A DNA stretch of 64,000 nt, from positions 26,658 to 90,657 of IMG/VR virus record IMGVR_UViG_3300036792_000096. One strand, written 5' to 3'. Of this stretch, positions 12,700-63,962 are shown one piece after another. The notes under the pieces were generated by a model. The model saw only the letters and a program-made list of their open reading frames with translations, searched no databases and had not been told where the DNA came from. Position numbers and translations under genes: made by a program. The stretch's first letter is position 1, and each line of letters begins with the position of its first letter. The DNA is from a virus.

Positions 12700-14376
12700 G
12701 TGCCCCCCGAACCGTGGCGTAACCGGATCGTCGGCGAGGGCGAGGAAGCGCCTGACCAGCTTCTAGCCAACCCGTTCAACTTCCGCATCCACCCCAAGGC
12801 ACAGCAGGACGGTGTAAGCGGGTCTCTGAACGATCTAGGCTGGATACAGCGGATTATCGTCAACCGGGCCACCGGCCATGTCATTGACGGTCACGCCCGG
12901 GTAGAACTCGCAATCAGCCGTGGTGAGCCGTCGGTGCCTGTCGTCTACGTAGACGTGACGCCGGAAGAGGAGCGCAAGGCCCTAGCCGTGTTCGACGCCC
13001 TCGGTGCCTTGGCTGCCATCGACGGCCCGAAGCTGGGTGAGTTGCTCGCCTCCATCTCCACCGAAGACCCGGATCTGGAGCGGATGCTGACGGATCTGGC
13101 TGGGGCCAATGGTGTGACCTTCGGAATGGGAGGCCGAGAACCGGAGGCGGACAACCTAGAGCAAGAGGTAGCCCGCGCAACCCTAGCGGAGCGGTTTCTC
13201 ATCCCGCCCTTCTCCGTCCTTGACGCCCGACAGGGGTACTGGCAGGAACGTAAGCGAGCGTGGCTCGCCCTTGGTATCCGGTCTGAGTTGGGGCGTGGGG
13301 AGACCCTGACGTATGTGGGCCGGGAGGACGAGACAGGAGAATCCGACGCGACGTGTCGTCCAGTGTCTCGTCCTCCCGGCCCACAGCGAAACGGCCAAGT
13401 GAGTCCAGGCGGGTCGCCGGGCGCGGCGACCCGCCTCAATCAGAACGGCAAGACGGAGCGGGGCGATGGCGCTGGACACCCGCTTACGTACAAGGGGCAG
13501 GAGTCGCTCCATGTGAACGAACCCGGATCGCGTTCAGCGACTCCTGCCCCTTCCCGTCGCATGACCTACGCTACGGGCTCTGCGGAGGACTTCACATCTC
13601 AGCGCATCCTTGAGCAGGTCCCTGCTCAAGGATCAGGAACGTCCATCTTCGATCCCGTGCTGTGCGAGGTGGTCTATCGCTGGTTCTGCCCGCCCGGGGG
13701 GCGTGTGCTGGACCCCTTCGCCGGGGGTAGCGTCCGTGGTGTTGTGGCGTCTCTTCTTGGGCGCTCGTACACGGGCATCGACCTATCCGAGGCACAGGTA
13801 GTGGCCAACAGAGGGCAAGGGGAGGCTCTCTGTTCACGTTCGCTAGATAGTGCAGTGGCACCTATGCCGCGGTGGTTCATGGGTGATAGCAGCAACATTG
13901 CCGCGGACTGGCCTCCGTCCGATGCCATGTTCGATCTCGTGTTCTCCTGCCCGCCGTACTTTGACCTTGAGGTTTACACGGATTCGCCTGCTGACCTCTC
14001 ACAGGCACCCGACTATGAGGCGTTCGTGGATGCGCTGGGCACCATCCTCACCGCCTCTGCTGGCCGACTCGCCGATGATCGGTTCGTGGTGTTGGTCATG
14101 GGAGAGGCCCGCAACGGGCGGGGCGACCTGTACGGGCTTGTGCCGGGCACCGTCAAGGCCGCCGGGCGAGCGGGGCTGACGTACTACAACGAGGCGATTC
14201 TTGTGACGATGGTCGGGTCGCTGCCGCTCCGGGTCGGGCGGGCCTTCCCCGTCTCTCGGAAGCTTGGGCGTACTCACCAAACCGTTCTCGTGTTCGTTAA
14301 GGGGGACGCTACCCGGGCCGCGGCTGCATGCGGTCATGTAGAGGTGGGGGATGTACCCGAGAGCGTCAACGCATGA
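12700..14376 (+). CDS. ParB/sulfiredoxin-domain and DNA methyltransferase fusion
   Basis: A 558-residue protein from GTG 12700; an open frame continues upstream but is the shadow of the winged-helix gene. Residues 20-130 are a ParB-N-like domain (LLANPFNFRIHPKAQQDG, then GHVIDGHARVELAISRGEP). Residues about 170-190 carry LDARQGYWQERKRAWLALGI, a segment I recall from phage ParB-methylase fusions. From about 330 comes an N4/N6 methyltransferase: LDPFAGGSVRG (SAM site) and SCPPYFDLE near 417 (catalytic). The linker at about 205-312 is low-complexity and its DNA contains four perfect inverted repeats. It probably modifies phage DNA against restriction; the ParB part may direct it to sites near the terminase genes. 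Confidence 0.85.
   Translation: MPPEPWRNRIVGEGEEAPDQLLANPFNFRIHPKAQQDGVSGSLNDLGWIQRIIVNRATGHVIDGHARVELAISRGEPSVPVVYVDVTPEEERKALAVFDALGALAAIDGPKLGELLASISTEDPDLERMLTDLAGANGVTFGMGGREPEADNLEQEVARATLAERFLIPPFSVLDARQGYWQERKRAWLALGIRSELGRGETLTYVGREDETGESDATCRPVSRPPGPQRNGQVSPGGSPGAATRLNQNGKTERGDGAGHPLTYKGQESLHVNEPGSRSATPAPSRRMTYATGSAEDFTSQRILEQVPAQGSGTSIFDPVLCEVVYRWFCPPGGRVLDPFAGGSVRGVVASLLGRSYTGIDLSEAQVVANRGQGEALCSRSLDSAVAPMPRWFMGDSSNIAADWPPSDAMFDLVFSCPPYFDLEVYTDSPADLSQAPDYEAFVDALGTILTASAGRLADDRFVVLVMGEARNGRGDLYGLVPGTVKAAGRAGLTYYNEAILVTMVGSLPLRVGRAFPVSRKLGRTHQTVLVFVKGDATRAAAACGHVEVGDVPESVNA
13314..13385. repeat. inverted repeat 1, 22-bp perfect arms
   Basis: Arms at 13314-13335 and 13364-13385 are exact reverse complements (22 bp) with a 28-base loop that itself holds CGAC-GT-GTCG. 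They lie inside the linker of the ParB-methyltransferase gene without breaking its frame. A stem this long is unexpected in coding DNA. Confidence 0.9.
13407..13436. repeat. inverted repeat 2, 13-bp perfect arms
   Basis: AGGCGGGTCGCCG (13407-13419), a 4-base loop GGCG, and its exact complement CGGCGACCCGCCT (13424-13436). A very stable GC hairpin 22 bases downstream of repeat 1 in the same gene. Confidence 0.9.
13492..13552. repeat. inverted repeat 3, 17-bp perfect arms
   Basis: AAGGGGCAGGAGTCGCT at 13492-13508 is matched exactly by its reverse complement at 13536-13552, with a 27-base loop. Geometry (long arms, loop near 27-28) is close to repeat 1, although the arm sequence differs. Confidence 0.9.
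13606..13633. repeat. inverted repeat 4, 13-bp perfect arms
   Basis: ATCCTTGAGCAGG (13606-13618), two bases, and the exact complement CCTGCTCAAGGAT (13621-13633). Almost a perfect palindrome, the fourth member of the cluster and the one closest to the methyltransferase SAM motif. Confidence 0.9.
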
Positions 14377-14873
14377 CCACTCCCACTCGGACGCCCCTCG
14401 CCGTCGTCGGGACAACCAAAGGACAGGACAAATCAGGCAACACGTCCGCGGCCTCTCGTCGCCAGATTGAAGCTGCCGAGAAGCAGCGACAAGCCGTAGC
14501 CCTTCGCCACCACGGGGCAACCTTCCAGCAGATCGCAGACCAACTTGGCTACACCAACCCGTCGGCCGCCCGCAAAGCCTTCCTCAAGGCCCTCGAGCGC
14601 TGGGGTGTGGAGGATGTCACCGACCTGCGCGCCGCCGAGGTGGCCCGGCTGGACTCCTACCTCCTTGTCGTCGCCACGAAGGTCAAGGCGGGTGAACTGA
14701 AGGCCGTTGAGACCGCACTCAAGATCAGCGAGCGCCGTGCGAAACTCTTGGGTCTAGACCAGCCTACAAAGGTGGTCATCACCGAGGATCTCTTGGAGGC
14801 CGAGCGTGACAAGCTCCGTGAGCGGGTCGCCACGCTCCGTGTCGTCGGAGGAGCGTCGTCTAGCGCTCCTTGA
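14373..14873 (+). CDS. terS: terminase small subunit (probable)
   Basis: A 166-residue protein directly upstream of terL and overlapping the ParB-methyltransferase stop (ATGA). Residues 30-75 form an HTH (RQAVALRHHGATFQQIADQL) as in small terminases that recognise the packaging site, followed by long helices for oligomerisation (ARLDSYLLVVATKVKAGELK) and a basic segment. It would bind the phage pac or cos site and hand DNA to the large subunit. Confidence 0.75.
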   Translation: MTTPTRTPLAVVGTTKGQDKSGNTSAASRRQIEAAEKQRQAVALRHHGATFQQIADQLGYTNPSAARKAFLKALERWGVEDVTDLRAAEVARLDSYLLVVATKVKAGELKAVETALKISERRAKLLGLDQPTKVVITEDLLEAERDKLRERVATLRVVGGASSSAP

Positions 14874-16338
14874 CGAGATCGCAGCGCTTCAGGCCGAGGA
14901 GCGGGCGCTACTGGCCGAAGCGGAGGTCACGAGGTTCTCCGGATACCGGGACCACCCTGTGGAGTTCGTCCGGGAGGTTCTCCGGGAGGAGATGTGGAGC
15001 AAGCAGGAAGAAATCCTCCGCTCCGTCTACCGGGATCGCCGAACCATCGTCAGTGCCTGTTTCGCTTCAGGGAAGACGTGGATAGCGGCCCGCCTCCTCG
15101 CGCAGTGGATCTCGACCGATCCTGGTGCGATCGCCATCACGACCGCCTCCGTCGGCCGGCAGGTAGCAGGACAGCTCTGGGGCGAGGTCCGCAACCTCTG
15201 GCGACGAGGAGTGACGCTGCCGGGCCAACTGGACCCCGCGCCCGGTGTCTCGCTTCCTGGGGATCTGCTCCCGAAGGCCCCTGAATGGATGGTGACGCCG
15301 GGCAGGAACTTCGCCATGGGCTTCAGCACGAACGACCCCAACCGCTTCTCTGGCTGGCACGGGGGGCGTGTCCTCGTGATCCTGGACGAGGCCGAGGGTA
15401 TTGACGATGACCTGTGGGACATCATGGAAGGCCAACTCTCCACAGGTGACACGGCCGTCCTGGCGCTCGGGAACCCCGACCCGGAGGGCATCCTCGGTGG
15501 CTTCCAGCACGCAGCATCTTCTCCGCTCTGGCACCACATCACGATCAGCGCCTTCGACACGCCGAACCTGATCGCCGGCCGGGACGACGTGGCTCCCTAC
15601 CTCGTGACCCGTCGCTGGGTGGAGGAACGCCGGCAGGAGTGGGGCGAGGACGACCCTCGGTGGATCACGAAGGTGCTCGGCCAGTTCGTGGAGGGCTCCG
15701 CGGCCAAGCACGTCATTCCTCTGTCGTGGTTCGAGCGGGCCGTGGACCGGCCCGGCGTGACGGCGGTGACTGAGAAGCCAGTGACGGGTTTGGACATAGC
15801 CCGGTTCGGCACCGACGACAGCGCCATTGTGATCCGTCAGGGTCCCCTCGTGCTCCACATGGAGCGCAAACACGGGTTCTCAGGCCCGGAGGTGGGGGGC
15901 TGGGCAATCGCCCGTATGCGCCAGCACGGCTCGGCAGTGGTGAACGGTGACAGCGGAGGGCTAGGCGGGCCGGTGCTGGATTTCATCCGTGAGACGCCGG
16001 GGATCCGCGTGCAGGACATCAATGCCGGCTCGAGGGCGGACGACAACGAGCGGTTCGTGCGCAAGCGGGACGAGCTCTGGTGGGGGGCTCGGGAACGCTT
16101 TGAGACCGACCGGATCGTCCTGCCGAGGAAGTTGGGTTCGGAGGTGGAGATCCTCAAGGGCCAAGTGACTCCGGTCCGCTACTCGTACCGGGTAGACGGC
16201 CGGATTGAGGTTGAGTCGAAGGACTCCATGGCGAAGCGGGGCCTTCCCTCGCCCGACCTCGCCGACGCTCTCTGTCTCGCCTTCATCGCCCCGTGGACGG
16301 CCCGCACCAACCTCCGCGACCTCATGGGCGGAGGCTAA
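14806..16338 (+). CDS. terL: terminase large subunit
   Basis: A 510-residue packaging motor from GTG 14806 (GTG 14818 and 14839 are alternatives; all overlap terS). ATPase domain: Walker A-like ACFASGKT at 84-91, a deviant form common in terminases, and Walker B VLVILDEAEG at 189-198. Nuclease domain: GLDIARFGTDDSA around D330, NGDSGGLGGPVLD, and the distal SPDLADALCLAF, the three acidic positions of the RNase H-like fold. It cuts concatemers and pumps DNA into proheads. Confidence 0.95.
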   Translation: MTSSVSGSPRSVSSEERRLALLDEIAALQAEERALLAEAEVTRFSGYRDHPVEFVREVLREEMWSKQEEILRSVYRDRRTIVSACFASGKTWIAARLLAQWISTDPGAIAITTASVGRQVAGQLWGEVRNLWRRGVTLPGQLDPAPGVSLPGDLLPKAPEWMVTPGRNFAMGFSTNDPNRFSGWHGGRVLVILDEAEGIDDDLWDIMEGQLSTGDTAVLALGNPDPEGILGGFQHAASSPLWHHITISAFDTPNLIAGRDDVAPYLVTRRWVEERRQEWGEDDPRWITKVLGQFVEGSAAKHVIPLSWFERAVDRPGVTAVTEKPVTGLDIARFGTDDSAIVIRQGPLVLHMERKHGFSGPEVGGWAIARMRQHGSAVVNGDSGGLGGPVLDFIRETPGIRVQDINAGSRADDNERFVRKRDELWWGARERFETDRIVLPRKLGSEVEILKGQVTPVRYSYRVDGRIEVESKDSMAKRGLPSPDLADALCLAFIAPWTARTNLRDLMGGG

Positions 16339-57972: not shown

Positions 57973-58007
57973 ACAGAGCCCCCTGCCTTCGCGGCAGGGG
58001 GCTCTGT
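57973..58007. terminator. strong bidirectional terminator
   Basis: A perfect 15-bp stem, 57973-57987 with 57993-58007, and a 5-base TTCGC loop, followed by TCGTTG. It lies between the rightward late operon and the converging leftward operon and should stop both. The whole stretch 57901-58030 is otherwise non-coding. Confidence 0.88.
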
Positions 58008-62592: not shown

Positions 62593-63884
62593 GCCTCCGC
62601 CGGCCAGAGGCGCAGCGCATCGGCGACGACTTCCTATTCACCTACCCCGTCGGTGGGATCAAGGTTGAGATGAGCTCGGTGAGCGAGTCTCGCCGCGAGG
62701 GAACACACGCCATGGTCGTCGTCCGGTCGAACGCGGGCAAGCTGTGCTGGACCCGGCTGAAGCTGGACAGCGACCGGGAGCGGAGCTCGCTGGCGAAGAC
62801 GCTGGCGAGCAAGAATGGCACTGCCGACTTCCCGTGGGCTGACGCTCTCGCTCAATGCGCCGAGATGGCCTGCGAGATGTATCAGGCGGGGGAGCCGACG
62901 GTGTTGCTGTGGGACGTACCGGCTCCCATGGAACCGTCCTACCTCTTAGATCCTCTCCTCCCTCTCAACGAAACGACGACGCTCTACGGCGATGGCGACG
63001 CGGGGAAAAGCTTGGTCGCCTTGAGGATGGCGCTTGCGGTGACATCCGACGCCCCGATGGAAGGCGTGAAGCTAGCGAGCAAACCGGGAGCGGTCATGTA
63101 CCTCGACTGGGAGACGAATGCGGAAACACACGCTAGGAGGATTCGACGTTTGGCCGCGGCGGAGGGGATCGTGACAGCCCCAAGGATCCACTACCGGAAG
63201 ATCAAGCGGGCTGTTGCCGACGAGATACGTGGGCTTCAGTACGAGATCGTAAAGCTTGGCGTGGTCCTGGTCATTGTGGACTCGCTGGGGGCTGCGGCCG
63301 GGATCACCTACGGAGATTCGATCAACGACCCGTCCGTCGGAGCCGGCGTGATGAACGCTCTGCGGGGGCTCAACGCAACCCGTCTCCTGATCCACCACAT
63401 GACCCATGATGCGGTCAAAAACGGAGGTTCGACAGCCCCGTTTGGATCGAGGTATTTCCGCAACTATTCACGGTGTTTGTGGGAGATGCGGCGAAGTCCT
63501 ATTTCAGAGGATGTAGCCCGGATTGCCCTGTTCAACCGAAAAATGAACGATGACGCTCGGCGGGAGCAACCAGTCGCCTACGAGATCGACTATGGGGGGC
63601 GAGGTGGTCCAATCCGTTTCCACAGCGTGGAGCTCGCCGACGACGCCGAGTTGATCCAGCACCTTCCGCTCGTTGACCAGGTTGTCCACTACCTTGAGCG
63701 CCAGCATGGGGCGCCGATGACGACGAAGGATCTCTGCGACCGGACTGGGAAGGATGCTGGCTCCCTTCGCCGGACCCTGAAAGGCAGTCCTCGAGTGACT
63801 GAACTTGACTCCGGCCAAGGCCGTTCGGGAGGCACCTACTGGGCGCTGGCTGCGCGAAGTTTGCGCGAGGTTGGGCATGAATGA
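62589..63884 (+). CDS. RepA-like RecA-fold ATPase / replicative helicase
   Basis: A 431-residue AAA_25/RepA-type ATPase. Walker A TLYGDGDAGKSLVALRMALA at 131-150, YLDWETNAETHARRIRR, Walker B VVLVIVDSLGAAAG at 225-238, then LLIHHMTHDAVKNGGSTAPF and GSRYFRNYSRCLWEMRR as sensor region. The last 70 residues form a winged helix (PMTTKDLCDRTGKDAGSLRR). It would unwind the origin, whose likely iterons overlap the gene's 3' end. ATG overlaps the previous stop. Confidence 0.85.
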   Translation: MSLRRPEAQRIGDDFLFTYPVGGIKVEMSSVSESRREGTHAMVVVRSNAGKLCWTRLKLDSDRERSSLAKTLASKNGTADFPWADALAQCAEMACEMYQAGEPTVLLWDVPAPMEPSYLLDPLLPLNETTTLYGDGDAGKSLVALRMALAVTSDAPMEGVKLASKPGAVMYLDWETNAETHARRIRRLAAAEGIVTAPRIHYRKIKRAVADEIRGLQYEIVKLGVVLVIVDSLGAAAGITYGDSINDPSVGAGVMNALRGLNATRLLIHHMTHDAVKNGGSTAPFGSRYFRNYSRCLWEMRRSPISEDVARIALFNRKMNDDARREQPVAYEIDYGGRGGPIRFHSVELADDAELIQHLPLVDQVVHYLERQHGAPMTTKDLCDRTGKDAGSLRRTLKGSPRVTELDSGQGRSGGTYWALAARSLREVGHE

Positions 63885-63962
63885 ACCTCGCGCAGTGCGC
63901 GAGGTGGGTGCGCGAAGTGCGCGAACCTCTACCCAAACCCGACGAAACAACCTCGCGCACTT
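63851..63962. repeat. iteron cluster, probable replication origin
   Basis: Seven copies of a TGCGCGA(A/G)G-type element lie here: 63851, 63862, inverted at 63884, 63896, 63909, 63918 (variant) and inverted at 63949. They cover the end of the helicase gene and about 80 bases after it. An AT-rich stretch with CGGAT...ATCCG (63970-63995) follows. Repeats next to a RepA-like gene and an AT-rich unwinding segment are the layout of an iteron origin. Confidence 0.65.

Follow-up and report, generated by a model that had tools for sequence, protein, structure and literature searches.

Here, we describe an array of perfect hairpin-forming inverted repeats in the linker of a phage gene encoding a fused ParB-like/DNA methyltransferase protein (ParB-MTase), and our results indicate that these hairpins probably arose at the DNA level, through replication template switching, in a part of this protein family that is hypervariable, modular and predicted to be disordered. 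The analyzed stretch of DNA (64,000 nucleotides, hereafter the window) corresponds to bases 26658-90657 of the virus record G000, which has a total length of 90,657 bases. The same 33-nt inverted-repeat sequence was found at both ends of this record (window 63862-63894, and L086:10-42), which suggests a terminal repeat and a near-complete genome. A terminator-like hairpin of 15 bp with a 5-nt loop was also observed at window positions 57973-58007.

The ParB-MTase gene (12700..14376, + strand) was assigned by matches to phrog_15396 (ParB-like), phrog_498/12517 (methyltransferase) and PF01555, as well as by profile matches to ParB/Noc and methylase PDB chains. Its start codon is approximate, with 558 amino acids counted from 12700, and its reading frame comprises 626 codons and remains open across all four repeats. 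The ParB-like N-terminal domain (residues ~1-135; 12700..13104, +), anticipated in the original prediction, was recovered with high pLDDT and by a profile search in which positions 1-133 matched ParB, Noc and Spo0J chains (best E 5e-9). This domain is followed by a conserved helical segment ending in GYWQERKRAWLALGIRSELGRG (anchor A, residues 166-203; 13195..13308, +), nearly invariant among 56 homologues, then by the linker (residues 204-314; 13309..13641, +), which contains all four hairpins, and finally by a permuted methyltransferase domain (13642..14373, +), in which the motif X/I region (SIFDPVLCE..DPFAGGS) precedes motif IV (SCPPY) and for which Foldseek retrieved SAM-methyltransferase matches. 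Carrying the conserved DPFAGGS and SCPPY motifs together with the ParB-like domain, the product is predicted to be a permuted N6/N4 DNA methyltransferase fused to that domain. Regarding a helix-turn-helix, profile matches reach the N-terminal domain only and, among the matches listed, Foldseek gives the methyltransferase fold only. In an AlphaFold2 model built with the 56 homologues, both domains displayed high confidence, while pLDDT fell below 50 for residues 204-245 and 257-314; given that the hairpins occupy residues 205-312, the hairpin zone coincides with the predicted disordered linker. This linker had been described as low-complexity; it is predicted to be disordered and is not composed of simple sequence. 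A second N6/N4 methyltransferase gene of the window (CcrM-like, PF01555; 8889-9656) carries no hairpins.

Downstream, the start of the next gene (14373..14873, +) overlaps the methyltransferase stop; its product matches phrog_645, labelled 'Rnase E', and from its position is presumed to be a candidate small terminase. It is followed by the large terminase subunit gene (14806..16338, +; phrog_2). Since the ATG at 14373 lies 740 bases after 13633, the distance originally given between the last repeat and the terminase genes was correct.

The four exact inverted repeats, with arms of 22, 13, 17 and 13 bp, were verified in both coordinates and frame. Hairpin 1 (13314-13335/13364-13385; 13314..13385) has perfect 22-bp arms and a 28-nt loop; hairpin 2 (13407-13419/13424-13436; 13407..13436) has 13-bp arms around the 4-nt loop ggcg; hairpin 3 (13492-13508/13536-13552; 13492..13552) has 17-bp arms and a 27-nt loop, which encodes TYKGQESL.. 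and by eye resembles a YK.QG.L module of L024 and L451; and hairpin 4 (13606-13618/13621-13633; 13606..13633) has 13-bp arms around the loop tc and directly precedes anchor B (GTSIFDPVL). Within the window the arms differ from one another, as had been noted; at the family level, however, hairpin 2 is one copy of a recurring element, the module M1 (PGGSxxxAxxL) described below, and locus L037 shares its 13-nt arms exactly but carries the loop gacg. In a scan for perfect inverted repeats (arms of at least 11 bp, loops of up to 100 nt), these four were among the five longest of the 64-kb window. Codon-preserving shuffling of the gene does not account for them: 500 shuffles yielded a mean of 0.08 repeats with arms of at least 11 bp (maximum of 2, longest arm of 14), against the 4 observed, with a longest arm of 22. 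In addition, single-strand folding gave z scores of -11.6 (DNA) and -10.7 (RNA), with none of 100 shuffles folding equally well. These results confirm the four repeats, which far exceed chance expectation.

The hairpins recur among homologues. About 450 loci were fetched, and 218 distinct linkers were excised between the two conserved anchors, which were located by pattern; most searches and statistics used these linkers, which are mutually related and hence not independent. Most ParB-MTase homologues in this set have no long hairpins, whereas at least one was present in 27 of 102 distinct single-frame linkers, at least two in 12 of them, and arrays reach up to six in one linker; L164, the nearest relative in the tree, has five. 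Same-frame linkers contain 2.40 long hairpins per kb, against 0.13 per kb elsewhere in the same loci, and codon shuffling over 76 of these linkers gave 2.2 expected hairpins for 57 observed. A single clade-specific origin of the arrays was rejected, as the methyltransferase tree requires 14 state changes, at least six of them forced by supported branches. A Chloroflexi host might be suggested by the L164 contig, which was binned with a Chloroflexi genome, but only 6 of 301 genomes of the phylum have any match. Our search of the open-access literature returned no report of a hairpin-filled ParB-MTase linker.

In a set of fourteen phage records, G000 among them, the repeat density of the linker is 7.35 per kb, against 0.10 in low-hydrophobicity coding DNA (a crude proxy for disorder), 0.05 in other coding DNA and 0.21 in non-coding DNA. 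The enrichment therefore exceeds what a genome-wide habit, or tolerance of unstructured coding DNA alone, can explain: relative to other tolerant or non-coding DNA in these phages, the linker is 35-70 times richer. This same enrichment is evidence against template switching as the full account, since template switching alone does not explain it.

We also considered translational bypassing or frameshifting over the linker, and rejected it: the window frame is open, and by eye the homologues with domains in different frames look like separate cistrons, because a stop/start overlap (GTGA) or an entire inserted gene lies between the domains. In the linkers of L012, L039 and L041, the ParB and methyltransferase parts are interrupted or in different frames, with GTGA overlaps following G runs, which suggests translational coupling. 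A gene for a pyridoxal-phosphate (PLP)-dependent enzyme lies between the two parts, or is fused within or after them, in L094, L096, L154, L464 (Pam4), L466 (ZS04) and L070; this enzyme may be a candidate for a role in DNA hypermodification.

The linkers were found to draw on about a dozen peptide modules, reused in varying order, among them M1 (PGGSxxxAxxL..GKTxRGDG), M2 (NGLLGESEQARSHY), M3 (FGQDLMRGEHVVG), M4 (DETSRKILA), and also NGILTSPGQY and GLLIDG. The modules differ in how often they occur as hairpins with arms of at least 9 bp (M2, 11/11 instances; M4, 13/14; M1, 14/57; M3, 8/115), and in homologues whose domains occupy separate reading frames the M1- and M3-type peptides are mostly hairpin-free. 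Even when the flanking domains are 83-92% identical, close relatives carry wholly different linkers, with hairpins swapped or missing. With respect to the refuting conditions originally named, codon shuffles do not account for the hairpins, but their loss in close relatives is observed. As DNA, M2 is present in ten of the 2.9 million viral contigs scanned, every one of them in this gene family, and a search of phage and plasmid collections gave no M2 match at useful similarity. Its sequence hardly differs at the DNA level between phages of different G+C content, or between phages with roughly 70% identity in methyltransferase DNA; therefore, a DNA-level constraint or recent exchange must supplement template switching.

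The near-identity of M2 across phages of different G+C, together with the varied module order, could also be expected of mobile palindromic coding elements inserting in frame. The Rickettsia palindromic elements, like the linker modules, are horizontally moving, in-frame palindromic coding DNA, with one motif across many genes; the phage linkers, unlike these and unlike PARCELs, which also place one motif in many genes, contain many unrelated hairpin families within one gene family. PARCELs are horizontally moving, in-frame palindromic coding DNA (PMC2996958). Considering also the confinement of M2 to the ParB-MTase family and that no transposition marks were seen, we regard this origin as very unlikely.

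The presence of a ParB-like domain, and of terminase genes lying directly 3' in the window and nearby in Mae-JY30 and ZS04, could suggest a self-encoded DNA site, on which that domain would load as on parS or from which packaging would proceed (pac/cos). The arms share no common motif, and arms, loops and hairpin number are not conserved; only the ParB N-domain was matched, the hairpin-bearing C5-methyltransferase described below has no ParB domain, and in phage ZS04 the linker is hairpin-free although the gene is near the terminase genes. Neither role, as proposed from the window sequence, is supported, the first in view of the lack of a shared motif, and the second in view of the hairpin-free homologues and the swapped or missing hairpins of close relatives, and we consider a DNA site highly improbable.

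Within hairpins of the same module, the two arms were directly observed to change together. For a fixed stem, both-sided changes affected 10 of 14 pairs in M4, 7 of 13 in M1 and 3 of 12 in M2, while slid or shuffled controls gave far fewer such changes; picking the three sets as hairpin-bearing inflates the fraction paired and, to a smaller extent, the preponderance of both-sided over one-sided changes. In total, 47 cells were changed on both sides and 4 on one side, and all four one-sided cells are G-U, the only G-U among ~370 paired cells. In M4, for example, a serine codon is TCC or AGC, and the opposite arm is correspondingly GGA or GCT. Arm covariation and very stable folding would also be compatible with a role in the late mRNA, where RNA hairpins would slow down translating ribosomes, or would serve to protect or process the message in the stretch between the domains. 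Conversely, the near absence of wobble pairs, the similar numbers of G-T and A-C mismatches in loci with hairpins (3 vs 2), and the variable count, position and register of the hairpins, missing in most homologues, argue against selection on RNA, and an Rfam search returned only chance matches to microRNA precursors, all under gathering scores. A regulatory role in the late operon, as first suggested, is accordingly quite unlikely.

The loops, in turn, were found inverted between unchanged arms. Loops of 2-4 nt form exact reverse-complement pairs in eight module families (gaa/ttc, twice; gga/tcc, in M1; ga/tc, three times; ct/ag; and tatc/gata), although the product of their chance values is only a rough guide because the families were defined by arm similarity. 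The strongest case is that of L010 and L011, whose sole difference over 4676 aligned bases is GA to TC in one loop; L367 and L374 differ by a one-base loop flip. Moreover, the M1 hairpin is imperfect in L009 and perfect in L012 and L038, in a comparison among loci rather than a time series. The homologous contigs are metagenomic assemblies, and it is possible that some loop flips or hairpins reflect assembly errors at palindromes.

Exactly complementary arms with both-sided changes, and loops inverted between unchanged arms, are the marks of a template-switch hotspot. We favor template switching because arm homogenization and spacer inversion constitute its published signature: in yeast coding genes it homogenizes arms of 10-16 bp and inverts 2-5-nt spacers, including gaa to ttc and ga to tc in either direction (PMC8604942), and it has been proposed both to create and to maintain hairpins (PMC8794818). 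A replicating strand reaching a partial inverted repeat would jump to the other arm, on the same or the opposite strand, and then return; one arm would thereby become the exact reverse complement of the other, and the loop would be inverted if the switch crosses the center. Both outcomes would preserve length and reading frame, and the protein is proposed to survive such rewriting because the linker is unstructured. Modules with ready-made hairpins would also be traded and reordered between phages by recombination. We infer polymerase template switching rather than cruciform processing as the agent, although cruciform breakage and re-ligation could also produce the loop flips. The hairpins would have no further molecular role, and the gene would be favored through tolerance and frequent module exchange combined.

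The proposal that DNA structure rather than protein was selected stands in part. Concerted arms, few G-U pairs and loop inversions point to a DNA-level process; however, protein selection also acts as a filter, since one codon phase is almost absent among hairpins. In same-frame linkers, hairpin axes fall in the three codon phases 45, 22 and 1 times, against 94, 56 and 93 for short chance repeats, so that the axis placing third codon positions opposite each other occurs in 1 of 68 hairpins and in 93 of 243 short chance repeats of the same linkers, related hairpins not being independent in these counts.

A second cluster was found in G000, outside the window, so that the density of long repeats in the ParB-MTase gene is not unique in this genome. 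It lies in a C5-cytosine methyltransferase gene (PF00145; L086:533-3202, i.e., G000:C1:533-3202) split by an intein (Hint domain and intein C-terminal motif) just ahead of the catalytic CQDIS. Its variable region (2355-2987) carries four long hairpins, with arms of 12, 23, 14 and 14, and a fifth is found further upstream in the gene (758-787), giving five hairpins against 0.06 in shuffles. One viral scan for relatives of this methyltransferase found none. Methyltransferase genes may become such hotspots because their variable regions often exchange modules, or because fast in-frame change is itself selected.

Multispecific phage C5-methyltransferases (SPbeta, phi3T, rho11, H2) have a modular variable region with rapid module exchange, whose modules are folded target-recognition units. 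The ParB-MTase linker shares the modular variable region and its rapid module exchange but is predicted to be disordered rather than a folded recognition domain. Hairpins are not a general trait of phage C5-methyltransferase variable regions, as none with an arm of at least 10 was found in five isolate-phage C5 genes. These observations bear on whether the palindromes are a selected diversification device, retained since switching, flips and module exchange quickly alter, in frame, a segment with influence on the partners or targets of the enzyme. Such hairpins are specific to the variable regions of methyltransferases, being present in many ParB-MTase linkers and in the C5-methyltransferase between 'RRNRVFLVGHLGG' and 'RRLTPLERERLQGFPDGW', and the modules are kept as peptides yet shuffled, flips altering 1-2 residues. 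Nevertheless, with the five isolate-phage regions and most ParB-MTase homologues lacking hairpins, and with the predicted disorder of the linker, we consider such a device rather unlikely. The broader form is unlikely as well: here, in two methyltransferases of unrelated type within one genome, palindromic modules would serve as in-frame flip/swap cassettes that keep changing the linker at a pace well above that of point mutation, and enzyme specificity would possibly change too.

Template switching, as the preferred reading, relates these linkers to several known systems. In plant chloroplast genomes, small hairpin loops between perfect inverted repeats flip repeatedly, mostly as single cases in non-coding DNA; the phage hairpins show the same repeated flipping of short loops, and differ in being coding and clustered. 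The yeast template-switch mutations likewise involve perfect and homogenized arms, inverted spacers, constant length and parallel flips, although as single hairpins scattered across genes (PMC8604942), whereas the phage hairpins form arrays of shuffled modules in one linker of one gene family. RNA-hairpin template switching similarly produces both-sided compensatory changes and loop inversion from one event, in RNA genes with conserved loops (PMC8794818), whereas in the phage case the DNA encodes protein, the loops are free, and nothing points to selection on RNA.

Previously known cases of template switching at inverted repeats are scattered single events. The ParB-MTase linkers provide, within one gene family, a dense and recurring natural record of what is probably such switching in coding sequence, comprising dozens of hairpins with concerted arm changes and inverted loops, and they caution that covariation within coding DNA does not necessarily denote functional RNA structure. 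Our findings open to testing how fast loops flip in phage populations, whether methyltransferase linkers tolerate or exploit these flips, and what makes hotspots of two unrelated methyltransferase genes in a single phage.
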